A stretch of DNA of 64,000 bases from Arbacia lixula. Lineage: Eukaryota > Echinodermata > Echinoidea > Arbacioida > Arbaciidae. The notes beneath the pieces were generated by a model. The model saw nothing but the letters and a program-made list of their open reading frames with translations, ran no database searches and had not been told where the DNA came from. The stretch spans positions 4,929,724 through 4,993,723 of the forward strand of contig OZ022584.1 of the NCBI GenBank assembly GCA_963669155.1, written 5' to 3'. Every line of letters begins with the position of its first letter. Position 1 is the first letter of the stretch. Position numbers and translations under genes: made by a program. Of this stretch, positions 26,141-51,388 are shown piece by piece.

Positions 26141-26204
26141 ATGGGGTATTCTTACTCATTTCTTCTGTGCATCGTACCATTTATCTCTCTTTACAGGTAC
26201 ACAG
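26141..26204 (+). CDS. Receptor exon 1: signal peptide
   Basis: ATG followed by a hydrophobic stretch ([14 protein letters not shown]), ending in phase 1 at a GTAAGT donor. ATTTTCAG lies directly before the ATG, so a non-coding 5' exon upstream is likely. The promoter would then lie further left. Confidence 0.7.
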
Positions 26205-29200
26205 GTAAGTACATGGTAATATATCACATATCTCGTACGCAACTTGTTCGTGGTCGTGTAGCGTTATCTGATATCATGATCTGAGATTAAAATCATTTTA
26301 CTTACATTTCTTGCACAAATTATGTTATTATTTAGCATCATGAATTGTGTGCTATGGTAGGCATGCTTTGGGTTGTCGTTGAAAATGTTTGCGAAACCAG
26401 CAGTGTGCCTAACATGGAAATATATCATTAAACCAGTCTCTAGGTAACATACAGTTCAACTAAAACTTATTTCATCTAGATAACAGCACGACAATACGGG
26501 CTCATCTAATGTACAAGCTAGATTTTGAAAGTTTCAGTTGAGTCCCACAGTAGGCTTAAAACACAGTCTTTGCTTTTGCTTTAATTGCATCATAAGACAA
26601 TAACTATACCAGCATTTAGTAATCCATGGCATTTTTAACATGTGTTTTTTTAGTGTCCAGATCATTGTGCAAAAAGCCAACTTGGACGAATGATATGAGG
26701 TCACTTTATCAACCGATGTTGTTGTATCCATATCAAAACACAGAGGAGAAAAGATATTAATCAGTTTCGGACTTTCGGAGATTATTTTCCAGGTTCATTG
26801 TCGAAACGCCACTTGGTTAACTAACCCATAAGATCAATCGCATTTTTGTGTCTTGGTATCGATAATGATGAAATTATTAATTATCTCCGGATATACTTTG
26901 TCACTCTCAGTGTCATGATATAAACATAATCAAACATGTTATCCATTTTGACCGCGATTACTGGTATTACCAAAGGATTTTTTGTTCATTAAAAAAATCG
27001 ACATCGTCATTGATCCCCTTGTTTTTTATTTTATTTTTTGGGAATGACAATGTCACAATAATGTGGCAAAACTGTGTATGCCACTTTAATGATAAGAGGC
27101 ATATTTACATCTCGACTGTCTGGTGGGTACCTAACCAGCAAATACAAAGTGATAACATAATCGAATTAACTTGAGAAGATCATATAAAAAGTAAATTTCG
27201 TATGATTACTGTGGATATAAGGGTAATACTATTTCTTTCTTATAGTTGATTTATCAATATGTTTAGATTTTATGCCCCAAACAAAGGGTTAACATGGAAG
27301 TGGTTTGCAATTGCTGCTCCCGCCTGCCGTTATGCGCCAGCGGTTTGCAGCGGCGGCAAAGCAGAAAAATTGACAGAAATATGAATTTATACATGCTCAG
27401 ATGGTCAACTGCTCCATCGAATGGGATAAACTCTATCAATGGCCCAATTTAAATGTCATTAAGGCAAGTGAATGAGGAAGCACTTGTTATTCCGAAGGTT
27501 CGTTATTCCGAAGGTTCGTTAGTCCGAGAAAGGAATAAGGCTCGTTATTCCGAAGTTCGTTAGTCCCAGAGATAGTTATTCGGAACCTTATTTCGTTTTC
27601 GGATTAACGAACCTTCGGAAAAGCGAACCTTTTTTCATTTTCGGAATAACGAACCTTCGGAATAACGAACCTTCGGAATATCGAACCGTAACCAGCGAAT
27701 GCGCATCGGTGTGAATGAACCTTAACGGTGAAATTATTTCACAATTGCAGCTGTAGGTCAGTTTAGTGCCAGTGAGGGATGGAACCAGCTGGGCAGAACG
27801 TCCTATCTGTTTAACTATTCGGCGAGGATCTCATTCGGTGATGCTCAAGTCGCCTGTCAGAGTCTTGGAGCCGACCTCGCTCTGAGCAAGACGAAGAAAA
27901 TCAATGTGAGTATCTTTGGTGCAGAAAGATGACGGGCACCTGGACCACATCGATTCAACTCGTTTAGTCTCGCTGTCGTAAATTTTCCATACCATACTGA
28001 AAAGTTGTCCCATGATGCACTGCGCAGCCACATTTAAATTTTGCTCGCAGCCACGCCCGCTTCCGGTCTCGTATACTATTGTATCAGACTAGATTTTAAA
28101 GAAACAAAACTTTTGTATTTTATTTTAATATTCATTTGGCCTATTCGTGTCTTCTTTATTTACAAATGAAACATAATGCAGGGTAGGCCAATTTAGTTAC
28201 AAAACTGTTTTACAAGTGCGCCCTGCACTTTAACATACTAACAAGATCATGGAACAAAAGCAAAAATGAGCAAAATCAAATATCAACGAAAAGTTCCTAC
28301 ACAAAACATATTTTGATATATTTTTTTATAGGTTCGCACGTTCTCAGTCGTGCGTGATTCGTTTAATACGCATGACGCATCACCAAAATGAACGAATTTA
28401 ATTATTAAAATTTTGTAGAAAATATGTTGATGCAATTGAACATATACACCAATCAATTTTAAAGAAATTTTAAAGTAATCATGATATCATTATGAAAATT
28501 TTGTCGAAAATATGTTCAGGCAATAGGACATATACATCAATGAATTTTAAAGAAATCATGATTTCCAATCAGTTCGCATGTTCCTAGTCGTGCGTGAATC
28601 ATTCATCGTGCCTGAAGGGTCACGAACAAAGTAAATAATAATGTAAAAATATTTCGGAATCGATTTGACTGATTTGATAAGGACCAACTCGAGCAAATGA
28701 GATTCCGATAGTGCCGTTGCATTAAACTCATTTATCCAATTATGTTCACTGGCCTAAATAACCGCGGAATTTGATTGCCGGCGACATTTATCACAATTTT
28801 CTCGTCAAGAAGTGCGCATGCACCACATGTCCGTCAGAATGCCACATTTATGTAAGCGACAACTGTAGGTCGGTGCAGATAGGAATTATCTTTATATATC
28901 AATAAGGAAGCATTGTTTTCACATATAATTTACAATTTACTTTAAAATGGAACTCTATTCAAAGTTTGTTTGCTTATAATCTGCATTAAAATCACTTGTT
29001 TTATTTCATTTTCTGATGAATTGAATTTTTCATCTCTCACCATCTCTCACCATACCACTTGACGCATTTACCTTTAAACGAATGATGCACCGGGAAGTTA
29101 TCCACATGTTCATGTAGTACTCTTCACAAAAATGTATCAAAAATCTATGAATGAGCCAAAATTCCACGCCGAAAGTATTTTCCACAAAGGAAGCTATGCT

Positions 29201-29754
29201 TTCAGTGCAGGTGCCTTGGCAATATCTTGTTACTACTCGATGCAACAAAAATAGGACAGCATATGAAGAGTTTATTTCCAAAACGAGCTAAGTCTACTTT
29301 GAGAACTTAAAAGAAAAACGGGTTTCTTAATCTTTCCTATGGGGAACTTAACTTGATATGTGATAATAGTTGGTCGTTTGGTTTGGTTAGACGTTAAATC
29401 CTTCTTCACCAAATGCTTAAACGATTCTCACTGTGCTAATGATAACTACATTTTTAAGAAAAATGGAATTAGCACCTTTTGCAAACAAGATCTTCATATG
29501 TGGTTATTCAGTTATTCGCCCTCTTTTTCTAGCAATTTATAACGGATTACATCACTCCTGGCCTGACGGAGACACGCTGTTTCTGGATCGGGCTGACGGA
29601 CCATGGAGAAGAAGGCTACTTTGAGTGGTCGGATGGAACTCCGCTTGGGTAAGGCGTAGCTCACTATCTATATTAATGCCATTACGAGCTCTAGGGTGAC
29701 TACGAGGTGTTAACAAAATATTTTACACTCTTGGAACCCGCCCCCCCCCCCCCC

Positions 29755-29805
<51 letters not shown>

Positions 29806-30366
29806 TCTATAAATAATGACTATACGAAACTGCAGTTACTGAAAAGTGCTCAACTACATGTACATATAGGAGCTTCATGTAGTATAGTATTAGGGTGGAG
29901 CGAGTTGCTTAGATTTTAGTTGTACAGACTGTTTCCCCCTGAGGGTTCATCATCAGCTATAGCTCAAGCACACGAGACACATAACAATTCCAATACGTAC
30001 ACCAAAATCGGGAAGATCCTGATGAAGGGCAGGTGCCCGAAAGCTTGGTCCTATAACTAGTAGCTCAAGCACACGAGACACATAACAATTCCAATACGTA
30101 CACACCAAATCGGGAAGATCCTGATGAAGGGCAGGTGCCCGAAAGCTTGGTCCTATAACTAGAAGCTCAAGCACACGAGACACATAACAATTCCAATACG
30201 TACACCAAAATCGGGAAGATCCTGATGAAGGGCAGGTGCCGAAAGCTTGGGTCCTATAACTAGTGGTAAACATGTCTTGCAACGGCCCTCTTCGACCCCC
30301 CTCTCCTGATCACACATATATGACGAAGAACCGCAAAAAACGTACATCACCGAGACTGATTACAAT

Positions 30367-30417
<51 letters not shown>

Positions 30418-30469
30418 AATATTTAAATAAAAGAGTTGCCAAAGCTGTTGTATATGTATAATTTCTTAC

Positions 30470-30518
<49 letters not shown>

Positions 30519-30924: not shown

Positions 30925-30981
<57 letters not shown>

Positions 30982-31431: not shown

Positions 31432-31485
<54 letters not shown>

Positions 31486-34400
31486 CTATTCATGACCTAA
31501 ATTCGTCGGTATCAGATTATTAATTTAGAGCAAAGCCATGTTTATTTTGCATAACACCTGTCAATCCATTTTTCAACTGCTATCATAGAGTCGATTCATT
31601 ATGCTTCTGGCGGAAAAGATCTTGTGCATTAACATGCCTGAAGCACTGTGGGCATTGTTGTGTTCTGAATCAATGTGATTTGCCAACAAATGAAAATTAA
31701 CCAAGTATTGATTCATGCAATGTTTAAAATCTGCCTTCGAAAGTATGTTATCATCACTGTATGTCTCATGTGCACGTCTTTATAATGATTGCGTATAAAT
31801 CATAAAGACTATCGAGGTACCTGGCAAAAAAAGGAAAAACTGATCAAAGAACTTCATCGAAACATCCTACTCGACGGATTTGGACATATGCGGGAAGTCT
31901 GTGACTTTTAAAGGCTTGATTCTGTGAAGCTTAAAACTAACGTTCAATGAGTGTCCCGTCCTTTCAATCCCAAACCCAGCTTCCAGGGCTGGTCTGGCCC
32001 CATGCCTGATAACTCCTGGCCGGATCAGGACTGCGCATGCGTGTGGTCCAGCACCCTGACCTATCGGCATGGCGGCTGGAACGACAACTGGTGCTACCAA
32101 TCTGAGCCGTACATCTGCCAAATAGAAAGCAAGTTATTTTCCCCATATTTGGAATAAAAACAAAGGCAAATTTCTATTTGTTTATCTATGTCAAGTATTT
32201 GCTTCTCGATGCTAATGTTTGTTTTGTGTATATGACATCAGCAACAAGTAAATTAATACGGCCTACATAACTACATAACATTCAAATGCCAATAAAGTCA
32301 TATGGAATAGATGTAACATTACTCATGAAGATATATTTATTGAAAATATATGGACATTTCTTTTTGGCTGAACCTTTGACGATGAACTGACTTAGAATTA
32401 TGCAGTTATTCAACATAAAGGAAATGAAAACAACTTTACTAAATTAGCCCTTAGCTTATCATGGCTTACAAAAACAGGTTTTACAATGTAGCAAACTTAC
32501 AGCAATACACAAGGTAATTCAATTCACAATTTGCCTTTGTCGTTATAATTATAATGGATTAACTAAGCATAATAGCTATATAAGCGCCTTCATTTGAAAC
32601 GCATGTTGCTTTTGAGCCGCCTCATAGTGATCCGTCTTCTTGTTAACACATGCAGAGTAGTAGTCATTACTAATACCCTAGTCACAGTAGAGGAGGAATA
32701 AGAAGGAATGCCGTCGGAATGAAAATTCTTGGCGCATTCCTGGATATTCGAAGTGCATTCTGACTGCATTCTGAGTGCATTCCGAATATTCGGGTCCATT
32801 CTTCTGTTTTGCTCATGCTCAAAATTTTCGAGGTGCATTCGAACTGGAAAAATATCGAACGGCATTCGAATTGCAGTCCAACAGCACTCTGACTGCATTA
32901 TAAATATTCTGACTGCATTCTAAATATTCTGACTGCATTCTTAAAATTCCTACTGTGTTCCAACTACAATTGAGCTACATTCGAGATCCAATAAACCCGG
33001 AATGTGCAAATGTGCAAGGGTTCGAAGGACATTCTAAGTTTTCGAACGGCATTTTTACATATTTAGCTCAATTCGAAATTCCCTCCTAAATGTGGCTCGA
33101 ATTCTGAAAAAAAAATCATTCCGGCTGGTTCTGCTTGATTCCTGCTGATTCCGAATAAGTGTGACGGGTAATTAATGTACATGTACATGTAGTAAATGTG
33201 CTGAATGTTTAACCTAACACGCCGAACCAGCAACTAAAAAAATAGAAGAACCCAGTCGTCAATTTCCAAACTACTTAGACCGGTCATAAATTACATTTAT
33301 GTGCCATTCCAATGGTAGCACATGTAATGGATGATTCATTTTCTTCAATCTCCAATTCTTTTCTCGCGTAGCCGGTCTTTGCGAAGTAACAGACTTTCGC
33401 TGTACTCGATCCGGTCGATGCATTCCGGCTGAATGGAGATGCGACACTGAAAATGACTGCGATGACGAGTCGGACGAACAAGATTGCGGTAAACCTTTTC
33501 ACCGTCGAGAATATTTAATTGCAAGGGCGTATACTTACAGGGAGAAGAATAAAACATTCTTTACAGTAAATAGATCAGCACATTCTTAATTCCTTGTCTT
33601 CCTTGTCTGTGCTTTCTTTTTTAAACATATTTGTCAATCAATATTGTTTCTATGAAGTGTGACAACAAAGCCCAAATTAAATAATTTGTTGTCTTCCGGC
33701 CGCAAAACATTCCATTCTTTGAATTAATACTTGTTCTACTGGGGACTCATACAATGAGTTTATTTTGGTTAATTTGCTTATTTAATAGGCAAGACAATGG
33801 AAGCCTTGGGTATTGTTCCTAAGTATCATTCCATTATCACAAGCCACACTGTCATAGTTGTAGCCTACTGGGTCGTATCACTGTCCAGCAACCAGTAGAT
33901 GCAGGTTCAAGTCCCTGTATGGTCTTCCTTTTGGTAATTTTTTAAAGAAATTAATCAATCAATCGTGTTACCACGGATAATTAGAGCAAAACACCTTATA
34001 TGACAATCTTAAGGCCCGGTCACGCCGCCAGAACTTTGCTGGAGCGTTCCTGGAGCGGTAAAAAAAAAATATCGTCGCCGCTCGTTACTTTTCACCACCG
34101 TTTAACATTAGTTGGCCCCCGTTCAGGCAACGCCGTATACGTTCGGTCACCATTGATGGTCCCCCCTACTGCTCCGAAAGTGTCAAAATTTGGCCCCTCT
34201 CCCTTCCGTTCAAGCAACGCTCCAACAAAGTTCGGGCGGTGTGACTGAGCCTGTAAAGTTTTAATTCACATGGAGTCTCCCGTGTTTCTGCTGTAAGCAC
34301 ACCGGATACGTTCTGTATCATGTACGAGCTCTGTGGTCTGTATCATTTTGGTTCCAGTAAGTCACGCTTATCAATGCTTGATTTACGAGAGCAATGTGGG

Positions 34401-35769
34401 TGCTACAAAAAGGGATTTGTGTTCATATAATAACTTTAACCCTTACACCTACTCAAATAGGATAATTAGCCACGTTATTACGATTATAAAAGACGTAGAG
34501 ATGTACAAATATGAATCTATGCCCAGCTCACGGCTATCAATTACACTTTTGATATCGGCACCGTCACGCGGCCTCCCCAATGATCTTTTTTGGTGCCTTT
34601 CAGTCACCGTTACGGTGTTCCCAAGAATGGTTCTTGATTCAATGACCTTTATGTATAGGTCTACTTTTTCAAGCAATGTGTAGTGCTAAGTGAGTCGTAT
34701 GTTGCGGTCCTATCTGCCATTGTTGGATATATACCTAGTGACCCGGTAGACTGACACCCCATGCATTTCCATCTGCTTTAAACACCAAACATTTAGTTAG
34801 ACATTTAACGTCATAAAGAAGCAACTGCCACACATGGATATGCGCGAACACGTGGTACACGCGAGGTACAATTTACAGCTCCATGCACCAAGTGCAGCAT
34901 GAACATTCGGTCACGACAATTCCTCGACTCCATTCATAAACGATAAACCCGCATACTTGTTCGCTCCTCTTGCATTTTATGACGTTAAGAGGTTGGAGGT
35001 GCAAAACAGACGATAGTGCATTCTTAAATGCAAAAATTATATTTTCAGACCCTTTTTCGCCATTGTATAGCTCATCTTTGCAAAGCGTTGCAGCGACTGC
35101 ACGATTTGTGCATGAGTGAATGAGTATGTTCGCAGTACAGGACCACAGGACCGACCGTACAATATTCCTGATTGGCTGGTGTGACCGTTACCGTGACGGC
35201 GCCGATATCCACTTCTTTCTGATACTAATATGCTAATATTACTTGCGTCTTCAACACACACTAAAAAAAAAACAGGGGACACCGTGACGGTGCCAATATA
35301 CACTACCTATCAATTATCGATGTTCTTGAAACTGTGGTCATTTTTACAGGCGGGAGGGTGTGTAACTTGGACCAGTTCTGGTGTAATGGCACAGACGATA
35401 CCCGCTGCATCCCCGCCTCATATCGATGTGACTTGGACGAAGACTGCCCAGACGGGTCGGATGAGGACGGCTGTGAAACCAGCAGTGAGTAACCCTTTCC
35501 TTTATTGTCCTTGTGTGGTGCTTTTCCTTGATTCATTCACATACCTTTCATGGTTTAATTTTGATTGGTTTGATAATAACAAGTCGTTTCCTTATTTTTC
35601 TTCCCTTGATGTATGCATCCTTTTAAATCGTTTTTTTTTCCTATCATTCATTTTTTCACCTTCTTCCATTGTTCGTGTCGCCTCCCTGGCCATTAATTTT
35701 TTTGTTTTTAGTCATCTTTATTTCATGTTATTTTAATTCCTGTTCAGATAATCTTTTCTTTCAGCTTTA

Positions 35770-35808
<39 letters not shown>

Positions 35809-36811: not shown

Positions 36812-36845
<34 letters not shown>

Positions 36846-39129: not shown

Positions 39130-39184
<55 letters not shown>

Positions 39185-42100
39185 TGTATGTATATAAATA
39201 TATATACATACATACATTACGAAATGAACAACAAGCAATGTAATCTTATTGCGAATTCTGATAGATTAACAATATAATTCCAGTACTTTCATCTTCAGAT
39301 TGGGCGATTTGTTCCACAATTCCGAGCACAAGTCGCCAGAACACAACGTTAAGATGCATGTGAGTAGCACAAACAAACTGACATGATTTATCAGTGATGT
39401 ACAGTTTTACATAGGTCGGCAAGAATTGTGAGCCCAATAGCACGTTGGCATGGTTTAACCAGGGATGTGTTAGGAAGGAGAAGAAATTCGAGCATAATAT
39501 ATTCAAACATCTGTATGGATACTAAAGCGTGCTAATGAATTCCAAAAGCATTCCACAATCACTACAATGCTTTGATGTCCCATGCACGGCACCGACATTT
39601 AGCTGCTGTCAACTTGGAAAGCAATATCTTTAATTCAGTTTTTCGCTGGAAGCTATGTTTCTTATCACATTTTTGTGCAATTTTCAAGAAAGTCACGGGC
39701 AACACCATTAAAGATCCTGTACTCAGTTTTCTTCTTAATAATTGTTGAATGATGCACAAACGGAGATATAAGATACTATTCTTACTTACACAATTAACAC
39801 ATTTCTTCAATTTCTGCAGATTTCCGCAAATTTGGGATTCAATCATTATCAAAATTATATCTTAAGCTGTTTAATTTCATTAAAAACAGGGTTTGCGTGC
39901 ATTTGCGTGCAACCATGGGCGGAAATCGCTCCCCGAAGGTGGAGGGGACATGTTTTTCCTCAAGAAGTAGCTGAGCGGGGGGGGGGGGGGGGGGGAGGGG
40001 GGGGGTAGTTATGGGATTTTGGGGAGGTGTTTTTTTTTTTATTTTTTTTCGGTACACGACCGAAAATAGTGGGGGGGGGGGGACATTTGATATTGTGTCC
40101 CCCCCTTTCGAAATGGTGGGGGGGGGGGGGGGACGCGAACCCGCCGTCCCCCCCCCCCCCCCCGGGATTTCTGCCCATGCGTGCAACTGAGATATTTTAG
40201 TTAAAAAAAGTGTTTATTTTTGTTCGCTGATATCTCTTTTCTTCAAAAAAGTATTGATGCAATCCAACAGAAATGGACAAGCGAAATAAGACTCTACATT
40301 TCTTTTGTTCTATCTGAGAAACCGTTGCTACGCAATCCTGTTCGTTATTATTTAAACACCTGAAAAGCACATGCTGAGAAGACATTTTTTCTTCCGCGGT
40401 GCCACGCATGGGTTCAAAGAAAGAAAGTTGTTTCATATCCTTCCATAACACATCCCTGGTTTTACACACGATGCGCAGCCGACTGTGGTATGTGCAATTC
40501 CAAACTTACCGCGTGCACGGAATTGTATAAAACGACGAAATACATTTTTTTTACGAAACACAAATCTTATTTATGTGTCCATAGAATGAGCAATAAAGAG
40601 ATTAAGATAATTGGACAACTCAAAATCAATCTTGAAGAAAAAACTCATTTCATGTTATTTGTATCAAATAAAGAAAGTTAGAAAAAACGGTGGAAATATC
40701 AGATTAGATTGCTTTTTATATTCACACCATGGCTAGTCGACTTTATAGGGCGACCCCATTATTATTTAGGCACGCTTTCATTTTCAGTAACATAATAGTT
40801 ATTTAAATTTGTGGATCTCTAAAATGTAGTGCGTCTAACTGTTTAATGACATTTATTGAAAATGAATTCTTATAGGTGAGCAAACAAATTTGTGAAACAA
40901 TGGAAGAAGAATAGTATAAATATTGCAAGCGAACGTAAATAGAGCAATACGCTTTGAACTCAAGCTGAATATATTCAATTAATGACATTGTTTTAACAGA
41001 TTGACCAATCAATTCCATTACTTACGGAAAGTAACAAGAAAACAAGAAAACGTTGTATTCATTTTGACCTGCCATCTGTTTGGCACGAAACGGTGGACCT
41101 GGTCTATGTATGTATGTCTGCCACTCTTGAACTTGAATAAAGTCATGATATAACAACTTACATGAATAACGCACAATTTGAAAATTTCATTTCTGTACTT
41201 TCTGGAAAGGTTGATGGAAGAATATCATCTCAGTACCGTCCAGAAAGACGACATGTTGTCGCTATTGCAGTCATGGTATGCGCCTAAACTATACGACGAT
41301 TGGCTGGCGACTCTGCGAGATTATAGCCCGGAAATTGTCAACGAAACCGTCCTGAAGGCACTTCAAAGGAAGGTGACGCACATGTGAGTATCAAAACCAC
41401 GCCATCCACCCGTTAACAGTTAACAAAAAAAAGCCAGTCCACGTTTTTGCAGAACGGACATCAGGCGCAGAACTGCAGATCATTGAACCTCTCTCAGTAC
41501 GCTGCATTTCGCCGCAAAGTGAGCAGGGTGGTGAGTGGCAAGCCTCGTCTCGCTTTTGCCTTACGCACAGTTTCTCGAAATCGCGTATTGTGACCATTCG
41601 CTTCCTCAATGATTGTGCCTTACTTATTAATGATGGTGTCAACAGACACTAGACGACTTGCTTGTATCGTTCTATCAGTAATCATAACATTTTTTATTCG
41701 GCCAGTAATTTGAACTCTAATGTCGTTTCTTAAAAGGAATTGCCACCCGAAGAGAGCTCGTTGAAATAGTTGAAAGTAATAGCATCAGAGAAGCAGAACG
41801 GGAATTTAAAGTTAATGATCATAGTTACGAAATCTATGTTTGAAGATATCTTATCATTAATACTACCAAGGTATAAAGTGGTGATATGTGGACTGCCTTG
41901 CTGTATGCCTACAGTAAATTTAGAGAGGGTATGTACAATACCTATTAGACTTACCCATGATGATTGATATTTTAAGTTTCGAGAAGTACTAATTTCAGGA
42001 ACACAACGAGGCCTAACTTCTTTGTAATGATTCATTAAATCGTTAAACGTTTTGTATTAAATATTCCATAGTAATTTGTATTTCTTGAGACTTAAGTTCA

Positions 42101-45100
42101 ACGGCCCATATATTTAATTTGATTTATTGTAGGATATTGTCTTTAGGCAAGTGCAATGGAAGCCAAATGTTATGACATAATACTACCAAACCTAGTTCCT
42201 GGCCTCCCTGAAGTATTTTTACGCATTTCCCAGGCACCTCGAACACAATGCCGTAGCTCACGTGGAACCAGGAGTCTTTAGAGGTTTTCTGAATATGGCG
42301 ACTTTGTAAGTACGACTGACAAATATAAAAAAAGAAATGAAACTTGATCTGAAGTAAGCATTAGTTTAATTGAGAGAGGTGCATATAAGAAAGAGAAGAG
42401 AAAGAGAAATAGGAAGAGAGGGGGAGAAAGAGGGAGGGGTTACAGAATGAGAGAGAGGTAAAAATGTTTATAGAAAGGAACGAGGGAGTTGGGAGAGTCT
42501 GTCTCAGAGAGAAAGTGAAGGAGGAGGTGTGGATAAATTCATAATTAGGAAGAGGATGAAAATTTGTTTCAGTAGAACGGGAAGTAATCAATATAACGAA
42601 TCAAAATAAAAATATGAATTTTTGATTTAGAGAAAGATATAGACAGAGATAGAAAGATGGGGCGGGCGGGAATAGATTGAGGACTAATAGGTCAATTGAT
42701 TTGATTTAGATTAGATTTAATAGGAGATATTCATGTTCTCTCTTATTTCATTTACAGTTTCTTTCTTATCGTGAATGTTTTACGATTTGTTTCATGCCGC
42801 AGATATCTGAGAAACAACCTCATTACCAGATTGGATTCTGGAGTCTTACAAGATATCGCAGGTTGGGGTATATTATTGTAAGTCACAACGTGTCAGTGGT
42901 GTTACTTCTTCCCACCCGTGGTCCTTCAATACAACTAGTCTTATTACAGAATGGGTAACAGAATCTCTGCAATCTAATTGGTTAATTACCAGTAATTACC
43001 CGTAATTCCCATGCATTTTTGGGTACTAGTAATGTATATCGGCACCGTCACGGTGTACCCTCGACTTGTTTTGTGTTGGGGACACAAGTAATATGTTACT
43101 ACAGTATCAGAAAGATCTCGGTACCGTTACGGTGTCAGTCACACCAGCCAATCAAAAACACTGTATGGTCTGTCCTGTACTGCAAACACATACACATTTA
43201 ATCGAGCATAATCATGCAGTCGCTGCAACACTCGCGAAGATGAGCTAAAAAATTGGCCAAAAAGGTCAGAAAAAATATCAATTTTGCCCTGTAGGCCTAA
43301 GTATGCATTATCGTCTGCTTTGTACCTTCAACCTTAAGCTAAGCCTCTCCTAACGTCATAAAATATAAAGTTTTGATGAATTCCATTTCTGATGCATTTC
43401 TGGTGTCCTTTCAATGTTTATCATCCATCTCTCGATGCACTTACACCTCTCGTGACATTCAACTCATTGTTCTGGTGGAGTGAGCACCGTTTAACAAATT
43501 ACTCATCCTTCTTGAGTTTGAAACTTACCCATGTGACTTTTGAAAAGTGACATTTTTTGCCTTTAAGATTTGTCCACTCATGCATGACTAATTTGATTAA
43601 TGTAATTTTGACAGAGAAGTTAGTCAATAAGTTATAATACTTTATTTTGCCCCAAACCTCTCCGATAAAAAGTTATGTTATTTTGCTTAGGGAGGGGGGG
43701 GGGCTTACTTTTTTGTTGTGTTTAAATGAACGATAACTCATTAATACATCATAATTCTTTTGTCTTCTACATGGCAGCTCGTTTTCCAACAACGATATGA
43801 CGCATATAGGCAATGGAAGTTTTCACAACCTGACTGTCCTATTGTATTTGTGAGTATACACAATGTGACCAACAATGACAGGTTATTTCATTTAGAAATC
43901 TTTTAGGCATCCACCCCGTAGTAAGGTTAAGATTATGGCTGGCTTGAACTTTTGCATGATTTTTCAAAGCATAGTGTATTCTACCCCAAGTTCTACGCAG
44001 TGGTGTGCATGGATTCTGACAACAACTAAGTCTGGTAACAAAGACTACACCCTGAAATGAGAGTGTAATCAGTTGTTCACAAACTCAGTTGTATACATGC
44101 ACTCTACAGCCTGGAATCTAGGCTGAACATATTCCTTGGTTGGCGACACCCGATCCAGAAATATTCAACACTGTTTTTCAAACAAGGAATTTTTTGGGAG
44201 GGGTTTAAGGTATTTTTTTCTCAAACTTCATGGAAACTCAGGTCTGTAACACATCAACAAAAGTGAAGAGGTCGTGCCCCAATACTAAATGAGATAATAC
44301 TTTATGAGATGATTCCTCTTGCAGCTCAAAAAATAAAGAGGAATGAACTAAGCAATATCTCGTGAAAATTGGACAACTACAGTTGATAACCCTTGTCGAA
44401 ATCCGTGTTTTGCATCGGCAAGAATGTTATTAGTTTCAATGTGCTTGGAGATATGGCTCAGAACGATGTGTTCCATGCTTTTGCAGGAGATACAAGACAA
44501 AGAATTTGGCCTGTAGTTGGCTGGGTCACTTTTTATGGATCGATGTTATAGAAGCTTGTATCCATTGATATGGAACCACACCATTGCCCAATGACAGTTC
44601 AAATAATAATGAAGAACATGTATCTCCCACCGACCTTTCATATTATATTTCATATTTCTGTGCTAGGTTTCTGGAGAACTCTAATGTATGTGAAATAGAC
44701 TCTTCTGCCTTTGAAGACCTAGTGAGCCTGGAATTATGTAAGCATTATACTCGTATCTTAACTTGCATGTAAACAAAGTAATGATATCAGCTTGTGAGCG
44801 TTTATCCATGATGATGTATGTTTGCGCCCGTGCAAGGGTAATTCAATAGGTATGTATGATTGTGGCTGTTGTCATGTTTGTAGGGTTGTGTGTTCCAAAC
44901 AAAATTGTCACTGCTATCAATATATATATTGCATTTTCAGCTTTACAACATATGTTGATGTGTATGCAGATACCATTTTGTTGCGTTTATGTGCGTAGAT
45001 GTTTATGTGTAAGCGTGTACATGCTGTGTATATGAGTATATATGTAAGTATGTGTCTAAACGTGAGTATTACAATAAATAGTGATTGAAAAGTGTAACAA

Positions 45101-48100
45101 AAATATCTATAATATCGGTAAACCCCAAAATAGTTTCACCTCACATAATAAATAAAGCTGTATCGAACTCGAACTTTTATCTCCCATGTACTACACATCG
45201 CATTCACCTGGTATCTTCCTATCTCTTTCGTCACCTACATCCCTTCTAACCTTACCTGCTAGGTCGCTGGCGAGCAATCACATCACCGAGTTCAAGCCAA
45301 GACTCTTCCAAAACTTGCAAAAGTTAGAAATATTGTAAGTACGGTATATGTCCGCTCATACTAGATTAATATTGAAACGGTACTATATTTACATTCATAG
45401 ATAGGTATCTTGTATGTTATGTATAATGTGTAAACGTGCATTACTTATTACATCGATTATATATTCTTCCAGGGTGGAGAAACATCTTGTCGCACTACTT
45501 GTTCATTCGTTATTTGCCTTCCTTACCTCGTTTTAATCACTGCTATCCATATTTATCTAGTGTCTAGAAATCATGTTTAGCTCATATTTTTTTTCCTGTA
45601 TTTTCCTTTTACCTTTAATGTTGTTATGGCTAATTACGTGTTCATATCCCAGTACTCAGCTTTCTTCACATAATCAGGACGTTTGTTAGTATGTGGCTTA
45701 TATTGATTTTTGTATCAAACAAAATGGTCGTCTCAAGTTTAGAATTGTCCTTTTCTGTCATAGTAAAATTTTTGTAGTAATTTACGGTAATTACGCCTAA
45801 TACATGCATTGCCAATCATCGGATATGTTGGATGATGGTTCACTACGGAGAAATAAGAGGATTCGGTCATTATTATGAGCAAGCACACGCGTCGATCTCG
45901 ATGTTAAATCTCTCATTGCCATTGGATTGTACATGTGTAGAAAGCCATTAAATAGCTCCTCTATCCCGATACACACAGGTACCTAGATAACAATGAATTA
46001 AGCATTTTGGAACCGGACATTTTTGAAGGTACAGTCGGGCTGACATCAGTGTAAGTATTGAAAACTCTGTACTACTTAACATATCCTTACTGTACTTTTG
46101 CTAAGTTGTGTGTGTGTGTGTGAACGCGCGCATGTCCGTCTATTTATTTGAAATTGTTTTTATCCGTGATTTTCCACTCAATGGAGACATGATTCTCTCC
46201 AACCATGGTTGAACTCCTCCAAGATTGTCAAAAGGAGGGCCATAATCACACTAACATCATAATAACCAGGAAAAGTGCAATTTCCAGCTTGTATATTTGT
46301 AGGATTATTGCAATGTAGTTAAGCAACAGATGTATGTGCTAGTATTTTAAATTTGTATTGTCGAATAATGTGTCCTTGGTTCAAGCGCCCTGATAATGGA
46401 GACCTCCCCTGTTATGCTATTTGGTTTTTGTGATAATTTCGTTGTGTTTATCTTCATTTTTTTCAGGAATCTAACAAACAACCGTTTAGAGTCTCTACCA
46501 CTTACGTTGTTCTCCAGAACAAAGGCAATAAAATATATGTAAGTACGCCAACTATGATAAGTATTTCGCTTGTTCATGCTGCGTTTCCTGGTGCCACGCT
46601 GAACAAGAAGAAAAACGGAACTCTCCGTTGGAATTGTACGTCACTGAGGTTGTGTTGAGAAAATAAAATAAAATAAAAAAAAACTCTTTCTTCAAATGAT
46701 AAGAGACCCATGCGTTGCCATACTTTCTAGAAGATTTACCTCATGATCTATATTGAAAAAAATTATCACCTCATTATTATTCATATTAGACGGTATGCTT
46801 TCTTCTAGATATGTCTTGTCAGTGCTCATCTTTAATGGTTTTTAATGATTTTCAAAGAATGGTGATGCGAAGACAGTAAGTGTTAGATAGCTTAGATCTT
46901 GGTCATGCATACTGCATGCAATGTGCATGCCACATTAGGTATACTGTGATTAGGCAACACATCATTACATCGTATCACATGATGAAATATTAATCATAAT
47001 TTGCTTTCTGTCTTTCCTTGGCAGAAGGTTAGCAATCAACAAAATCAGGGAGATTCAGCCAGGAACCTTTGCTGGCCTGGACAAACTTCAAGAACTGTAA
47101 ATATGTTTCGTTTTGATGTATTTTATCATAGGAAAGAATACACTAATTGCATTTTTTTTTTATTCATTAAATTAAAGGGAACATCTAACTTACCTTACTG
47201 AAAATTGTATGGAGCTTTGGTACAAACTTACAGTGTACGCCATAGCAGATTTCATTCGTAATTGTGTATATAGCATGACGTGCAAAAAAAAATAGACATG
47301 TTTATGAGTCATGTAATATAGAAATGATTTATTTCATTATCATAAGGGATCTTGTGGAATCTATTAGCACCCGAGGTTGAGTGGAGGGCGTGCGGTACCG
47401 CACGCCCTCAATTTTACCGAGGGGACCAATAGATTCCACAAAGATCCCCAATAAAGATCATAAAATATTTGTTTTATATCCTTCATTGATATATTCTTTG
47501 TTAATTGAATCATGGAACTTGTGATAGCTCTAAGCTCCGAACGTTGGGTGCCCGATTCATTTTTTTTTTATTTCCTGCGGCTTGAGCAACCAACGGAAAT
47601 TCAAGTTGCGCCTCGGCCGCAAGACGTACACCGCGGTAGTTCCCCTCCCAATTTTCCGCTAAACGCAAAAAAGCAGCTAGAAAGAAATGTATCGCGTAGA
47701 TTTTGCGTGTCGCGCATTTACCCGGGATGAACCGATATCGAGACAGAGGGATAAGGGCGACTATTTTTTTAATAACATCACAAAATAGTACCCATTTACC
47801 CTCTGAGCTTCTTTCGCTCTATATAGTTAAACTATCTGTTGTCATGTGACACACTTTTAACCAAGAAACGAACTGGAATATATTAATAAGGAATATAAAT
47901 ATTGTTAGAAGCTAAGGTCTCATTGACAATTGAACAATTTCAAGAAATTTTAACAACTGAGTTGCAATTTTCTTATGACGCATTATATCATATGTCTACT
48001 ACAGAACTTGATTTGACACAAGTTCACCCTATTTAATGGGAATGATATTGTCACATATGAATCCGCTGATGGTTTTATGTACATTATGGTGATGAAGGGC

Positions 48101-51100
48101 CAGCCTAAATGATTTTCCTAAATTTCCAACGGATTATTTCACCATTAATACACACAAGTACTAGAGCAAATTGTGTCTGGTATAGGTGTTATGTACTTAG
48201 TGAATAACATCACTAAAGACATGAACGACGCCGCAAGACCAATATCATATTATGTGGTTTTCCAAGGTAATATCAACTTTTTTTTTTCATGGCAGAAACT
48301 TGTCTTCAAATGTTATTCAAGAACTAAAAAGCGATGTAGTTTCTGGACTGCGAGCGCTTCAACTCTTGTGAGTATTTCATAGACAGAGATGTTATTCCTT
48401 ATTGTAATAAAAGGAAGCAATAAACAAAATGGACTTGAATGAGTTGCATGTGCCGGTCATTTGCAATGGTATCATTGCAACACCACTAAAATTGATGTTA
48501 CATCGAAAATCTAATTTCATTTCCACATTTTGCATGAAGTAGGGAATGATGGATACAATCTATGAAAATCAACCTAACCTTTAATGATTTGTCACTTCAT
48601 TCCTCTGATCAAAGGAGGGAAGTACCAGTATCAAATACGCTGGGGGATTTCGTTCCTCTGATGGTACAAATCTTGATTAAGATGGAAGTTGTATTTTGTC
48701 TTAAGACATCAAAAGTGGGATCATCAGCTCTTGTGATTATACTGTGTCGTATCATACACACCAGTTCCGGTGTGGACAGGAATTATAGGTACTTTGGGGA
48801 CGACACAAATTAAGAGGTGTGTCTTATGAGGACAATAGTGCAAAGACATCACAGTTTACTGGCCACCCCTTTGTTGTTCTTCTTACGTGAATGATATATC
48901 AAATAAAGAGTAAACTGTTGATTTCTTATTATAACAGAGTATGCTTTATTCAACGTTCACACGAAAGTAGTTTGACGATGTGACGTGTGACGGCCGTACT
49001 TACCCTCGTGGTGAAGCAATAACAAGGAATAATATATGTACATTAGCAATCTGCATATGTCAGGGTGATCCACTTCTTCACCAGGAGAGAAAGCATGTGA
49101 GCGGCCCAGTAAAAGAGTCGCTTTGACGAGCAGCAGCGGTAAGTGATTTCTATGCTGCGTGTGAACGAACCTGTATGCATCTATTTGGGAGATAACTATT
49201 TCCATTGATTCTTCCTTTAGGGATCTCAGTTACAATAGCATCAAGTACATCGAGGCTGGATCATTCCACAACCTCACAAACCTTCTCTACCTGTAAGTAC
49301 CATTCGATAGTGTGGATAATTGTATTAATGAGCAGGTTGAAGTTTATAGAAGTTTTACCCACGTGTTAGAGCTCTTGTATCTCAATGTTCGAATACTCGT
49401 TATATCAAAGGTTCGTTATTCCGAAGGTTTGATTGTCCGAAACAAAAATTGGCTTCGTTAATCCGAAAGTGAAATACACTTATTTCACTAAAAAACCGAT
49501 GTTGTAAACTTTGTTTTCGGAATAACAAAGTGTCGCAATAACGATATTTTGAATCATTGCAAAACATAACCCCACCCGAGCTTATAAGATCAATAGACGT
49601 TTGATTATTTGAAAGAGACATGAAGATTGACACCTATGCATGTATCAAACCTCATTGCTTACAATTTTATCTTTAATGATAATTGCAACTCTATCTCTTG
49701 TCTAATCTTATTTACCACAAAAATGTATTTTCTCCTCAGTTTTCTGATAGGTACAGAGCTGGGTCAGGTCCATCCTGATACACTACTTGGACTTGTGTCG
49801 CTTCAGGCGCTGTGAGTAGACATCTCGTTGTATGCGCTTTTGTAGAAAGTAATACACATGAATCCGAAACAGGAGTAGTTTATCGGGCATGCAAAAGGTT
49901 AAATTTACAGTATTGATCATGCTGCGAAATGTCCTCCTTGATGATGAGGGCATGTATGACGAATTTAATTCTGTAGAATCCATAATCGTCTTCCAGACCT
50001 GTTACCGTGTCAGACTAGTTTCGAAAAAACAAGTTCCTGACTTATTAAAAGTTGCAATTGATCTCAATCGATTTCAAGTCTAATCTCCGATCTCTATTCT
50101 ACAGAATTACGATTATTATGTCAATCACAAGTCAAGTTGCGATTAATCGGAATACTTTAGAAGTCAGATCCAAGGTGGAAGGCACAAGTTAAAGCATATA
50201 TTAAATTGTTGTCTTTTTAGCTCAACTTCCGATGAGCGTCTTTGCTGCCTACTGGACCGGATGAACGGAGAGAGCTCTGTGAACTGTACGAGAACCTCAC
50301 AATCAAGCCCGCTTGACACATGTGGCAGTATATTTTCCTCCATAGCACTCCGTGTAGCAGGATGGGTCCTTGGTATCTCCGCCCTCATTGGCAATGCACT
50401 AGTGCTGTACATCCGTTCGGCTAGACGGCTAGATATCCATGGCACCGCGGTTCAAAACAATTTCGTCAATAGTCTCGCCGTGGCTGATTCTATCATGGGC
50501 GCTTACATGCTCATCATTGTAGCGGCTGATCTGTACTACGGGGATCAGTACTATTTGAGTGCCCCGCAGTGGCGAGAGTCTTCTGTCTGCTTGTTAGCTG
50601 GGTTTCTGGGTTTCCTATCCAGCGAGGCTTCAGTGTTTACACTTACGCTAATCACAGTTGATCGGTTCATTTCGATCGTGTTCCCATTTGCCAGGTGCAA
50701 GATAAATTCACGGATCTCCATCTTCTGCAATGTTGCCGTTTGGGTTTTTACAATAATCCTTAGTCTCGTCCCGCTGTTGTTGATTCCCGTTAGACCAGAT
50801 ATCTACGGCCTGTCAGATGTGTGTATCGGTCTGCCGCTGCACGTCGAGTCCGTTGGTTCTGGCGCCCTTCAAGTTCTTCGCGACGAGTCCTACGAACCTG
50901 TCGGTGTAATTTTCGTTCAGTCACAGGTAGAAACGAAACCGCCATGGCTGTTCTCCATCATCATTTTTCTGGTTGTTAACTTCGGTTCATTTCTCTTCAT
51001 CCTAAGCGCCTATGCTGTAATATTCATCAAGATTATGCGATCGGCGGCGTCCGTCCGAAATACAGGGGGGCGGGAAAGAGAGATCAAAGTTGCCAAGCGT

Positions 51101-51388
51101 ATGACGATAATTATCGCCACAGATTTCATCTGTTGGATGCCGGTGATCATCCTGGGTATATTATCACAGTCCGGATCGGTTGAGCTCCCTTCAGCTGTAT
51201 ATGCCTGGATTGTCATCTTCGTCGTCCCTGTGAACGCGTCCATCAACCCATTCATCTATACGTTCATGTTGATCTCCGATAAAAGGAAAGACGTGAATTC
51301 CAAGGAGCGAACCAGTGGTCAGACACAGGAGGAGGAGCAGAGATCACGTGTGGATATGGTTGACGTTAGTCCAGAATTGCCGGACTAG
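26141..51388 (+). CDS. C-type lectin/LDLa/LRR G-protein-coupled receptor (GRL101/RXFP-like LGR)
   Basis: Reconstructed from 21 exons: 26141-26204, 27751-27905, 29533-29648, 31980-32128, 33372-33488, 35350-35484, 36633-36689, 38634-38678, 41221-41383, 42234-42305, 42803-42877, 43778-43849, 44667-44737, 45263-45334, 45979-46050, 46467-46538, 47025-47096, 48296-48367, 49221-49292, 49740-49811, 50221-51388. Every join is phase-consistent except at the 71-nt exon 44667-44737. About 987 residues if that exon were 72 nt, 963 if skipped. Order: signal peptide (1-22), C-type lectin domain (about 27-161), two LDLa modules (about 163-245), Cys-containing linker, about 12 LRRs (about 322-598), CC hinge and 7TM (about 630-945), short tail. 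The 7TM matches type-C LGRs (GRL101, relaxin receptors). It should sit in the plasma membrane with a large ectodomain. Ligand and G-protein coupling cannot be told from sequence. Linker exons 7-9 are the weakest part of the model. Confidence 0.88.
27488..27690. repeat. TTCCGAAGGTTCGT inverted-repeat family, copy 2
   Basis: Several direct GTTATTCCGAAGGTTCGTTA units on the left and inverted TAACGAACCTTCGGAATAAC units on the right, forming a hairpin array 60 bp upstream of receptor exon 2. Confidence 0.85.
27751..27905 (+). CDS. Receptor exon 2: first part of C-type lectin domain
   Basis: Encodes [20 protein letters not shown] and then [18 protein letters not shown], the beta1/alpha1/alpha2 region of a C-type lectin fold with the conserved helix-2 Cys. 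It lacks the extra N-terminal Cys pair, so it is the short form. Phase joins exon 1 exactly. Donor GTGAGT. Confidence 0.9.
27906..29532. other. Receptor intron 2
   Basis: AT-rich, with a degenerate direct repeat near 28425-28560 (ATATGTT, ACATATACA, AATTTTAAAGAAAT) and two TCGTGCGTGA blocks (28349, 28588). No exon was seen. Confidence 0.5.
29533..29648 (+). CDS. Receptor exon 3: middle of C-type lectin domain
   Basis: Encodes [20 protein letters not shown] and [18 protein letters not shown], matching the WIGL core and the W-S-DG-x-P-L block of C-type lectins. There is an additional Cys just before the WIGL core. Phase 0 in, phase 2 out. Confidence 0.93.
29738..29812. repeat. Poly-C / poly-A / TA tract
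   Basis: About 17 C, then about 35 A, then (TA)n in the receptor intron between lectin exons 3 and 4. Confidence 0.95.
29881..31480. repeat. 1.5-kb nested palindrome with hammerhead-like repeat units
   Basis: Two mirrored halves meet near 30684. Left half: unit B (29883-29956), three direct copies of an about 100-bp unit A (to 30263), a unique block with (TA)n tracts, and unit B again. The right half is the reverse complement of the TA block and of two unit A copies, followed by a second mirror point at about 31281 and another unit A. Unit A carries CTGATGA-AGGGCAGGTGCCC-GAAA (30019, 30121, 30222; minus at 31123 and 31224; plus at 31343). Unit B carries CTGATGA, a CCC/GGG stem and GAAACAGTC (minus at 29956 and 30674; plus at 30693). 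It lies in the intron splitting the lectin domain. Confidence 0.9.
31980..32128 (+). CDS. Receptor exon 4: end of C-type lectin domain, GC donor
   Basis: Encodes [20 protein letters not shown] through [18 protein letters not shown]. The WND motif for Ca2+/sugar binding is present, while the usual EPN/QPD position reads MPDN. The only donor that keeps phase with the next exon is GCAAGT at 32129, the consensus of rare GC-AG introns. Confidence 0.9.
32677..33175. repeat. TGCATTC/TTCGAA-rich minisatellite element
   Basis: CTGACTGCATTC and CGGCATTCGAA variants recur. The flanks CCTAGTCACAGTAG and AAGTGTGACGGG look like decayed inverted ends (GTCACA...TGTGAC). Probably one decayed non-autonomous element. 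Confidence 0.6.
33372..33488 (+). CDS. Receptor exon 5: LDLa module 1
   Basis: Encodes [20 protein letters not shown] then [16 protein letters not shown]. Six cysteines and the Ca2+-binding D-x-SDE cluster are intact. Symmetric phase 1-1 exon, typical of mobile LDLa modules. Confidence 0.95.
33848..33930 (+). mobile_element. Possible tRNA-derived SINE head
   Basis: GTAGCCTACTGGGTC resembles a pol III A box and GGTTCAAGTCCC, 46 nt on, a B box. Pairing around it (GCAGG...CCTGT) resembles a T-arm. The body and tail are not defined, and it is not an intact tRNA. Confidence 0.4.
34008..34253. mobile_element. MITE with GGCCCGGTCACGCCGCC ends
   Basis: AAGGCCCGGTCACGCCGCC at the left is mirrored by GGGCGGTGTGACTGAGCCT at the right. 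Internally imperfect inverted, non-coding. Confidence 0.75.
34974..35305 (+). repeat. Dispersed repeat with CACCGTNACGGTG palindromes, copy 1
   Basis: Aligns in opposite orientation with 43028-43363. Shared: TGACGTTA, CAGACGATA, TAGCTCATCTT, GCAGCGACTGCA, GATTGGCTGGTGTGAC, GTTACCGTGACGG. It ends only about 45 bp before receptor exon 6. A related fragment is at 34550-34625. Confidence 0.75.
35350..35484 (+). CDS. Receptor exon 6: LDLa module 2
   Basis: Encodes [20 protein letters not shown] then [16 protein letters not shown]. Six cysteines, an NGT glycosylation sequon and the acidic DGSDE Ca2+ site are visible. Phase 1-1; acceptor TTTACAG, donor GTGAGT. Confidence 0.95.
35767..35812. repeat. 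(CT)n microsatellite
   Basis: TC dinucleotide run just downstream of LDLa exon 6, with pyrimidine-rich flanks to about 35915. Confidence 0.95.
36633..36689 (+). CDS. Receptor exon 7: small linker exon
   Basis: A 57-nt phase 1-1 exon between TTGACAG and GTAAGT, encoding [17 protein letters not shown] with two cysteines. It is accepted for its excellent splice sites and phase fit. No domain recognised. Confidence 0.55.
36814..36845. repeat. Poly-T run
   Basis: About 31 consecutive T in receptor intron 7. Confidence 0.95.
37009..37710 (+). mobile_element. hAT-like non-autonomous element, copy 1
   Basis: Starts CAGGGATGTGTT then GGAAGGAT and ends TCCTTTCTAGCACATCCCG. It aligns along its length with 56639-57362 and in reverse with 39460-40458. 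No transposase. It directly abuts a second element at 37715. Confidence 0.8.
37715..38392. mobile_element. TIR element with TAAGGTTGCGTTCATGCG ends
   Basis: About 20-bp ends are inverted (TAAGGTTGCGTTCATGCGAC / GCGCATGGACGCAACCTTA). Internal palindromes use GAATCATGATTC. No recognised protein; a 150-codon frame inside resembles nothing known. Confidence 0.75.
38634..38678 (+). CDS. Receptor exon 8: small linker exon
   Basis: A 45-nt phase 1-1 exon between TTTTACAG and GTAAGA, encoding [15 protein letters not shown] with two cysteines. Together with exon 7 it may form a disulfide-bonded cap before the LRRs. A MITE begins only 13 bp past its donor. Confidence 0.55.
38691..38891. mobile_element. 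Foldback MITE (GTCTGGTAATACAGACTAGG family), copy 1
   Basis: TAGCCTAG, GGTCACAACTGAGTCTGTT and TATGTCTGGTAATACAGACT at the left are mirrored at the right. Copies: 62557-62793 (full) and 43990-44125 (partial). Confidence 0.85.
39108..39185. repeat. (CT)n then (TA)n microsatellite
   Basis: Compound dinucleotide run in receptor intron 8. Confidence 0.95.
39460..40458 (-). mobile_element. hAT-like non-autonomous element, copy 2 (inverted)
   Basis: Ends CAGGGATGTGTTAGGAAGGA and TCCTTCCATAACACATCCCTG, flanked by near-identical 8-bp sites GGTTTAAC and GGTTTTAC. It is about 300 bp longer than its relatives because of an insertion at 39911-40178. Confidence 0.85.
39911..40178. mobile_element. G-rich element nested in the hAT-like copy
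   Basis: Ends TGGGCGGAAATC and GGGATTTCTGCCCA are inverted. GCGTGCAAC lies on both sides as a target duplication. The related copy at 37009-37710 has an empty site at the corresponding position. G and C homopolymers fill it. A relative lies at 57839-57955. Confidence 0.8.
41221..41383 (+). CDS. Receptor exon 9: linker helix and first LRR
   Basis: Encodes [19 protein letters not shown], then [13 protein letters not shown] which runs into the LRR of exon 10. The donor GTGAGT in phase 2 is convincing. The acceptor at 41221 was chosen because only it fits phase 1 from exon 8; its pyrimidine tract is weak, so the 5' edge may be wrong. Confidence 0.6.
42234..42305 (+). CDS. Receptor exon 10: LRR
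   Basis: 72 nt, phase 2-2, encoding [20 protein letters not shown]. It fits the L-x-x-N-x-(I/V)-x-x-(I/V)-x-x-G-x-F pattern. Confidence 0.88.
42803..42877 (+). CDS. Receptor exon 11: LRR, 75 nt
   Basis: Encodes [20 protein letters not shown], a 25-residue repeat, one residue longer than its neighbours but still phase 2-2. Confidence 0.85.
43028..43363 (-). repeat. Dispersed repeat with CACCGTNACGGTG palindromes, copy 2
   Basis: Inverted relative of 34974-35305, in receptor intron 11. Shared GGTACCGTTACGGTGTCAG and CACACCAGCCAATCA blocks. Confidence 0.75.
43778..43849 (+). CDS. Receptor exon 12: LRR
   Basis: 72 nt, phase 2-2, encoding [20 protein letters not shown]. Donor GTGAGT. Confidence 0.88.
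43990..44125. repeat. Partial copy of the 38691 MITE family
   Basis: ACAACTAAGTCTGGTAACA, AAACTCAGTTGTATACATGC and GGAATCTAGGCTG match the family, but the ends are eroded. Confidence 0.6.
44667..44737 (+). CDS. Receptor exon 13: LRR with 1-nt deficit
   Basis: Encodes [20 protein letters not shown] as a normal LRR, but is 71 nt. The donor side reads GAATTATGTAAG where one more T would restore the standard phase-2 end. Either a true 1-bp deletion, an assembly error in a T-run, or an exon that is skipped; skipping keeps frame because both neighbours are phase 2. Confidence 0.7.
45263..45334 (+). CDS. Receptor exon 14: LRR
   Basis: 72 nt, phase 2-2, encoding [20 protein letters not shown]. Acceptor GCTAG, donor GTAAGT. 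Confidence 0.88.
45979..46050 (+). CDS. Receptor exon 15: LRR
   Basis: 72 nt, phase 2-2, encoding [20 protein letters not shown], then GTAAGT. Confidence 0.88.
46467..46538 (+). CDS. Receptor exon 16: LRR
   Basis: 72 nt, phase 2-2, encoding [20 protein letters not shown]. The acceptor follows a long T-tract. Confidence 0.88.
47025..47096 (+). CDS. Receptor exon 17: LRR
   Basis: 72 nt, phase 2-2, encoding [20 protein letters not shown]. Donor GTAAAT is slightly weaker than the others. Confidence 0.87.
47345..47449. repeat. Hairpin with 26-bp perfect palindromic core
   Basis: Arms of about 50 bp (GGGATCTTGTGGAATCTATT / AATAGATTCCACAAAGATCCC) close on a perfect core at 47384-47409 centred on GGTACC. 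It lies in receptor intron 17. Confidence 0.9.
48296..48367 (+). CDS. Receptor exon 18: LRR
   Basis: 72 nt, phase 2-2, encoding [20 protein letters not shown]. It has the usual LxxN core; the consensus Phe is replaced by Val. Confidence 0.87.
49221..49292 (+). CDS. Receptor exon 19: LRR
   Basis: 72 nt, phase 2-2, encoding [20 protein letters not shown], the most canonical repeat of the set. Confidence 0.9.
49385..49560. repeat. TTCCGAAGGTTCGT inverted-repeat family, copy 3
   Basis: GGTTCGTTATTCCGAAGGTT at the left is mirrored by TTTCGGAATAACAAAGTG at the right, in receptor intron 19. Confidence 0.75.
49740..49811 (+). CDS. Receptor exon 20: last LRR exon
   Basis: 72 nt, phase 2-2, encoding [20 protein letters not shown]. 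The LxxN core is degenerate (Gly-Thr in place of Asn), as is common for the last repeat. Confidence 0.87.
50221..51388 (+). CDS. Receptor exon 21: hinge, seven-transmembrane domain and tail
   Basis: Begins [13 protein letters not shown], the CC hinge shared by LGRs, then NCT and other sequons. TM1 has IGNALV, TM2 LAVAD, TM3 ends VDRF (E/DRY variant), TM4 Trp in AVWV, TM6 CWMPV, TM7 NPFIY (NPxxY). The best match is to GRL101 and relaxin-family receptors, which share the LMG-type TM2 and SSE-x-SVFTLT TM3 pattern. The tail after TM7 is about 38 residues, acidic and Ser/Thr-containing, ending at TAG 51386-51388. All 7TM sequence lies in one exon. Confidence 0.97.

Follow-up and report, generated by a model that had tools for sequence, protein, structure and literature searches.

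The window analysed here, a stretch of 64,000 nucleotides from Arbacia lixula (C9:4929724-4993723 in a 607-Mb assembly), contains one plus-strand gene that runs from an ATG at 26141 to a TAG ending at 51388, with the strand and the named modules where an initial sequence-only reading had placed them. Mitochondrial COX1 on contig C590 of the assembly agrees with a sea-urchin sequence at 318 of 331 residues when read with the echinoderm code, compared with 310 for the invertebrate code and 308 for the standard and the vertebrate codes; ATA falls on Ile eight times, AGA on Ser twice and on Arg and Gly once each, and AAA on Asn and Lys once each. This points to an echinoderm, probably an echinoid; a Patiria-like sea star was rejected as the source on the COX1 result, a starfish gonad-stimulating peptide having found one match in the genome (E 0.085, 43%). 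The gene is predicted to encode a receptor composed of a signal-like start, a C-type lectin domain (CTLD), two LDLa modules, a six-cysteine linker, about 11 leucine-rich repeats (LRRs) and a class A seven-transmembrane (7TM) region. Its exons were found from a listing of open reading frames and by reading the sequence; splice sites and phases were then assigned (Table 1). Elsewhere in the window, exons with Pfam matches to the PolyA_pol head and to RNA-binding regions lie at 3488-8805 on the minus strand. They probably represent the gene for TRNT1, a CCA-adding tRNA nucleotidyltransferase, of which two coding-like stretches (1367-1636 and 2119-2355) may also be part. The receptor gene has a reverse-transcriptase fragment just upstream (RVT_1 in Pfam; 24742-25314, plus strand) and a LINE-like fragment, recognized by eye and with no Pfam match, just downstream (51737-52006, plus strand). 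The intron between e3 and e4 holds a large palindrome-like stretch (29960-31400), where 101-102-bp tandem units flank TA-rich repeats, the inverted order of the units being judged by eye. Neither Rfam nor a tRNA scan gave a match in the window.

Table 1. Exons of the receptor gene, with positions in the window
Feature	Position	Strand	Observation
Exon 1, ATG start and signal-peptide-like segment, end phase 1	26141..26204	+	Kept in paralogs A, B and C
CTLD exon e2	27751..27905	+	Pfam Lectin_C; window gene and 7 paralogs
CTLD exon e3, carries CFWIGL	29533..29648	+	Window gene and 7 paralogs
CTLD exon e4, carries MPD, QDC and WND; GC donor	31980..32128	+	Window gene and 7 paralogs
LDLa module 1 (e5), phase 1-1	33372..33488	+	Pfam Ldl_recept_a; window gene and 7 paralogs
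LDLa module 2 (e6), phase 1-1	35350..35484	+	Pfam Ldl_recept_a; window gene and 7 paralogs
Linker exon X, 57 nt, phase 1-1	36633..36689	+	AG/GT borders kept in 3/3 paralogs fetched
Linker exon Y, 45 nt, phase 1-1	38634..38678	+	AG/GT borders kept in 3/3 paralogs fetched
Linker exon Z, 61 nt, phase 1-2	39299..39359	+	AG/GT borders kept in 3/3 paralogs fetched
Linker / LRR N-cap exon e7, phase 2-2	41210..41383	+	Genome matches at E 0.1 are exactly the 8 family loci
LRR exon L1, 72 nt	42234..42305	+	Splice sites/phases and LRR matrix scan
LRR exon L2, 75 nt	42803..42877	+	Same length in paralogs B and D; none seen in C
LRR exon L3, 72 nt	43778..43849	+	Splice sites/phases and LRR matrix scan
LRR exon L4, 71 nt, lacks one base, frameshift if included	44667..44737	+	Paralogs B, C and D have an open 72-nt copy
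LRR exon L5, 72 nt	45263..45334	+	Splice sites/phases and LRR matrix scan
LRR exon L6, 72 nt	45979..46050	+	Splice sites/phases and LRR matrix scan
LRR exon L7, 72 nt	46467..46538	+	Splice sites/phases and LRR matrix scan
LRR exon L8, 72 nt	47025..47096	+	Splice sites/phases and LRR matrix scan
LRR exon L9, 72 nt	48296..48367	+	Splice sites/phases and LRR matrix scan
LRR exon L10, 72 nt	49221..49292	+	Splice sites/phases and LRR matrix scan
LRR exon L11, 72 nt	49740..49811	+	Splice sites/phases and LRR matrix scan
Hinge, 7TM and tail exon, stop TAG ends at 51388	50221..51388	+	Pfam 7tm_1; best solved match RXFP1

We examined how the exons join. The best donor of e6 is in phase 1 and the best acceptor of e7 in phase 2, a mismatch when the two are spliced directly, and e6, if left unspliced, reaches a TAA at most three codons past its donor. 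Both observations favour the view that two neighbouring genes lie here, one for a secreted CTLD-LDLa-LDLa protein and the other for a separate LRR-GPCR. Once the small exons X, Y and Z, overlooked in the initial reading, are added, however, the LDLa and LRR halves join in phase. The splice borders and the frame through this linker are conserved in the three paralogs fetched, as is the six-cysteine stretch of about 54 residues that it encodes (36633-39359), for which no Pfam family was found at E 0.01. Two ways of splicing e6 directly to e7, one with an acceptor at 41248 (phase 1) and the other with a donor after 35488 (phase 2), scored poorly and are made needless by the conserved exons. The earlier statement that the exon phases connect therefore holds with X, Y and Z added and L4 omitted, and fails for the gene as first modelled. 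The signal peptide expected at the front corresponds to a signal-like exon that is kept in three of three paralogs and that is the sole candidate within 10 kb upstream at the thresholds used; with the search confined to the lectin end, the only signal-like first exon is the one heading the lectin half, which also speaks against two genes. As for the repeats, we counted 11 LRR exons where about 12 had been estimated; L2 has 75 nt, L4 has 71 nt and the other nine have 72 nt each. In a splice-aware scan of the window with an LRR-exon matrix, the nine exons of the gene from which the matrix was built scored 31.9-44.0, values that are high partly by construction; L2 scored 8.5, the best other place in the window 10.8 (minus strand) and the best of three shuffles 0.8.

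The domain content of the 987-aa model, in which L4 is skipped, agrees with what had been read from the letters: a Pfam search found all four kinds of module, namely Lectin_C (5.7e-18), Ldl_recept_a in two stretches (5.7e-18), LRR_8 (4.6e-65) and 7tm_1 (8.9e-25), each match exceeding the curated cut-off. The relaxin-receptor-like scaffold proposed for the LDLa-LRR-7TM part is likewise supported, since the closest solved structure to the LRR-7TM half is the relaxin receptor RXFP1 (E 1.3e-66) and, among solved structures only, the 7TM exon alone scores higher against RXFP1 (134.7 bits) than against the thyrotropin receptor TSHR (107.4 bits). The best solved matches of the CTLD are multi-CTLD receptors of the mannose-receptor type. 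The 7TM exon carries the class A motifs DRF and NPFIY, and LDLa, LRR and rhodopsin-class 7TM are combined in one predicted chain, as in type C of the A/B/C1/C2 scheme of LGRs, as outlined in part of PMC11863921. An AlphaFold prediction of the 7TM exon (pLDDT 45) was not used, and the single NCBIfam match of that exon, far below the cut-off, is meaningless. The product is very probably a surface GPCR that couples to G proteins.

To place the gene in its genome, we searched the whole assembly exon by exon. Firstly, with an E-value limit of 1e-15 the 7TM exon matched 68 stretches, a number that counts pieces of exons rather than genes and sets a lower bound. Eight of them rank highest, namely the window gene itself (100%) and seven others at 73-79% identity, located on four large contigs: C9, C12 (three), C17 (three) and C20. 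Secondly, the other exons of the gene returned the same eight loci. All eight matches of e7 at E 0.1 are exactly these loci; the first 16 of 18 matches of the LDLa pair fall there, two per locus, and so do the first 24 of 87 matches of the CTLD, three exons per locus, the next CTLD match having an E-value of 6.6e-9 and 34% identity. Thirdly, the CTLD, both LDLa modules, e7 and the 7TM exon are collinear on one strand in the window gene and in seven of seven close paralogs. Among the three paralogs in which the interval between e7 and the 7TM exon was scanned, we found 11 LRR exons in B, 11 in D and 10 in C, the scan of C failing to find L2. Of the 41 copies of exons e2 to e7 in the paralogs, 39 keep the position of the acceptor and 40 that of the donor; for the three exceptions (the e2 acceptor in E and F, the e3 donor in F), inspection by eye showed an in-phase site displaced by one or two codons. 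In a 7TM tree made from 29 of 30 related loci and RXFP1 (L038 was omitted as too short), a branch with 100/100 support sets the eight apart from all other entries, the rooting of the tree being unsure since the RXFP1 branch is very long (5.17). No tandem paralog was found inside the window by tblastn at E 1, by patterns or by the LRR matrix, and no relative was found among viral contigs. The collinearity of both halves in eight loci, together with the conserved exons X, Y and Z that close the phase chain, leaves the two-gene reading extremely improbable. By every line of evidence short of transcripts, what lies in the window is almost certainly one continuous gene.

We next consider whether this particular copy is intact. 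Exon L4 has 72 nt and is open in the three paralogs examined for it (B, C and D), so the window copy lacks one base: with L4 included, translation meets a stop at residue 476, while skipping it keeps the frame. The donor of e4, the last CTLD exon, is GC in the window gene and GT in seven of seven paralogs. Unless splicing leaves L4 out or the assembly has dropped a base in error, the frameshift in this exon may have damaged the copy. A stronger form of this view holds that the architecture is real and the window copy a pseudogene in the making, its L4 base lost and its e4 donor weakened. In addition to these two defects, the 7TM tree gives the window gene a longer branch (0.24) than any other of the eight, and its pairs show a higher dN/dS than the others in the CTLD (0.17 versus 0.12) and in e7 (0.47 versus 0.17). 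In contrast, its pairs are not raised in the 7TM (0.12 versus 0.12) or in the LDLa pair (0.15 versus 0.16), the other 21 exons joined contain no stop, an assembly slip is possible, and omission of L4 preserves the frame in a class of receptors for which passages of PMC8286064 note the skipping of single LDLa or LRR exons. We consider decay of this copy unlikely.

Across the family as a whole, we estimated pairwise dN/dS (NG86) over the eight copies. The medians are 0.12 for the CTLD (23 of 28 pairs usable), 0.12 for the 7TM (28 of 28), 0.15 for the LDLa pair (28 of 28) and 0.23 for e7 (12 of 21 pairs, seven sequences), all of them rough since median dS exceeds 1 in each region. Rough as they are, these values show that the lectin domain is under purifying selection. 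Identity among the eight copies is 57-89% in the CTLD and 74-91% in the 7TM, with a median of 51% in the linker exon e7. Identities of the CTLD and 7TM covary over the 28 pairs (r 0.56, permutation p 0.002), as predicted for parts of one gene, while those of the LDLa pair and the 7TM do not (r -0.08, p 0.61). The LDLa pair of the window gene (33372-35484) is 91% identical to that of paralog B (L040), whose 7TM is 76% identical to its own; this likeness argues against a simple history, and gene conversion may have occurred between the two LDLa pairs.

What the lectin domain might bind was approached through its site residues. The classical Ca2+-dependent sugar site consists of EPN or QPD, the E of EDC, and WND. 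Aligned with solved lectins, the window CTLD has MPD at the EPN/QPD place and Q for the E of EDC, and keeps WND; the classical combination is thus absent from the window gene. Put otherwise, of the five positions that usually serve as Ca2+/sugar ligands, three are kept (D, N and D), while M and Q occupy the two that are usually E/Q and E. All eight family members share PD, QDC and WND and differ at the first position, where six have M and two have Q. The site is therefore conserved and non-classical, a pattern that makes some binding function likely and classical Ca2+ sugar binding less so: judging by these residues, Ca2+-dependent sugar binding of the classical kind is improbable. We think that the CTLD probably takes part in the choice of ligand.

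We compared the predicted receptor with systems described in the literature. The initial reading did not know of a characterised receptor with this arrangement. The layout itself is not new: according to passages of a 2025 paper, 10 of the 12 GRL101-like genes of the SudRes2 region of the snail Biomphalaria sudanica combine CTL, LDL, LRR and 7TM, the N-terminal CTL being called unique to them (PMC12297450). Those passages contain no test of function. Compared by description, the window gene has the same four elements in one chain, with the lectin N-terminal and the 7TM of class A, and both sets are multi-copy; the snail genes lie within a 440-kb region, whereas the eight Arbacia copies are spread over four contigs and have two LDLa modules and the six-cysteine linker. 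Our literature search, outside which most subscription journals lay, found the lectin-LDLa-LRR-GPCR layout only in snails, so its absence elsewhere is not proven. GRL101 of Lymnaea stagnalis and of ambulacrarians, a type C2 LGR, shares LDLa, LRR and 7TM with the Arbacia gene in the passages of PMC8286064, but has many LDLa modules (12 in Lymnaea, far more than the two found in the window gene and in seven of seven paralogs), and the word "lectin" is absent from the text of that paper. The same passages report one GRL101 gene per ambulacrarian species, as against the 68 GRL101/RXFP-like 7TM stretches in Arbacia, families being compared here by description. RXFP1 and RXFP2 (type C1 LGRs) have the same LDLa-linker-LRR-7TM order as the Arbacia gene; they differ from it in having one LDLa, no lectin and a linker whose motif GDNNGW directly follows the LDLa, as given in part of PMC4837482. 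This motif is found neither in the window gene, which reads ETS-IIMTNDSC..., nor in paralogs A, B and C. Amphioxus receptors with Lectin_C, LDLa and SRCR domains also place recognition domains before the 7TM, but belong to the adhesion class and not to the LRR/rhodopsin class, in the description given in part of PMC2246102.

These comparisons bear on what the receptor is for. An endocrine receptor for an insulin-, relaxin- or IGF-like peptide, in which the CTLD would merely be a spacer or adhesion module, would fit a scaffold whose nearest solved relative is RXFP1, the degenerate sugar site, and the proposal, in passages of PMC8286064, that GRL101 is an IGF receptor. The absence of GDNNGW and the presence of eight copies with diverging CTLDs count against it, and we find it rather unlikely. 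In our best explanation, which we hold to be probable by a small measure, the window gene is one of eight close paralogs encoding a single-chain receptor with lectin-led ligand capture. The outermost CTLD, aided by the LRR arc, would capture an extracellular ligand, possibly a glycoconjugate or a protein from microbes, food or conspecifics. Binding would then reposition the LDLa/linker segment so that it touches the 7TM loops and switches on a G protein. Activation through the LDLa/six-cysteine linker would follow, by analogy, the model for RXFP1, in which, as proposed in passages of PMC4837482 and PMC4561518, the LDLa module and the linker act on the 7TM loops once the hormone has bound; the lack of GDNNGW in the linkers examined counts against this explanation too. 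The eight copies may be tuned to different ligands, their CTLDs and e7 linkers diverging more than their 7TMs. That the role is immune or chemosensory rather than endocrine is a call we place just short of even. The layout is hereby placed in a deuterostome, in an eight-gene family whose exon structure is largely conserved, and its snail counterpart sits in a parasite-resistance region as described in part of PMC12297450.

Finally, we analysed the nearest relatives of the eight, L017 on C15 and L018 on C22, which join them in the 7TM tree with 98/99 support. Upstream of both, on the same strand, lie SRCR exons: by eye, thirteen SRCR-like stretches fall within 20 kb upstream at C22 and one within 30 kb at C15, and six of the six stretches submitted to Pfam from these loci are SRCR. 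The genome search located more SRCR exons on C15 (8483127-8488499). Its own neighbours aside, the C15 SRCR finds its closest match on C6 (74%), followed by two on C22 (67%); at the C6 locus no related 7TM occurs among the matches listed. At C15 the LRR exons begin about 4 kb beyond the SRCR exon; at C22 one LRR-like exon is located some 5 kb beyond the final SRCR stretch. We infer that SRCR exons and LRR-7TM share mRNAs at both loci. A search of these upstream stretches with the exons of the family (E 0.01) found nothing but SRCR-like matches at C22; at C15 there was a single weak match, resembling e2 (E 0.001, 38%). Neither stretch gave a match to e3, e4 or LDLa, nor a CTLD or LDLa pattern. 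A remnant or divergent CTLD may thus be present at C15. Two sister receptors with upstream SRCR exons in place of a full lectin domain further weaken the case for an endocrine receptor, and suggest an LRR-7TM chassis with exchangeable recognition modules, SRCR in one case and lectin in the other. The same literature search, likewise outside most subscription journals, did not find GRL101 together with SRCR. Together with the lectin family, these sisters amount to a natural experiment in which the signalling body is shared and the recognition head differs; this makes it testable whether invertebrate GPCRs are direct pattern-recognition or chemosensory receptors. As a tentative proposal, which we would sooner doubt than believe, a relaxin-receptor-type LRR-7TM chassis might have become a family of direct-recognition GPCRs, its heads swapped by exon shuffling (a CTLD and two LDLa modules in eight genes, SRCR arrays in the sisters), coupling microbial, dietary or conspecific surface molecules straight to G protein; the lectin version would have arisen, or been kept, in parallel with the snail receptors of the schistosome-resistance region. 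On C8, three SRCR exons (14405325-14406980) lie about 18 kb upstream of a related 7TM on the same strand (14425389-14427149), and this locus is possibly a third SRCR-headed receptor.
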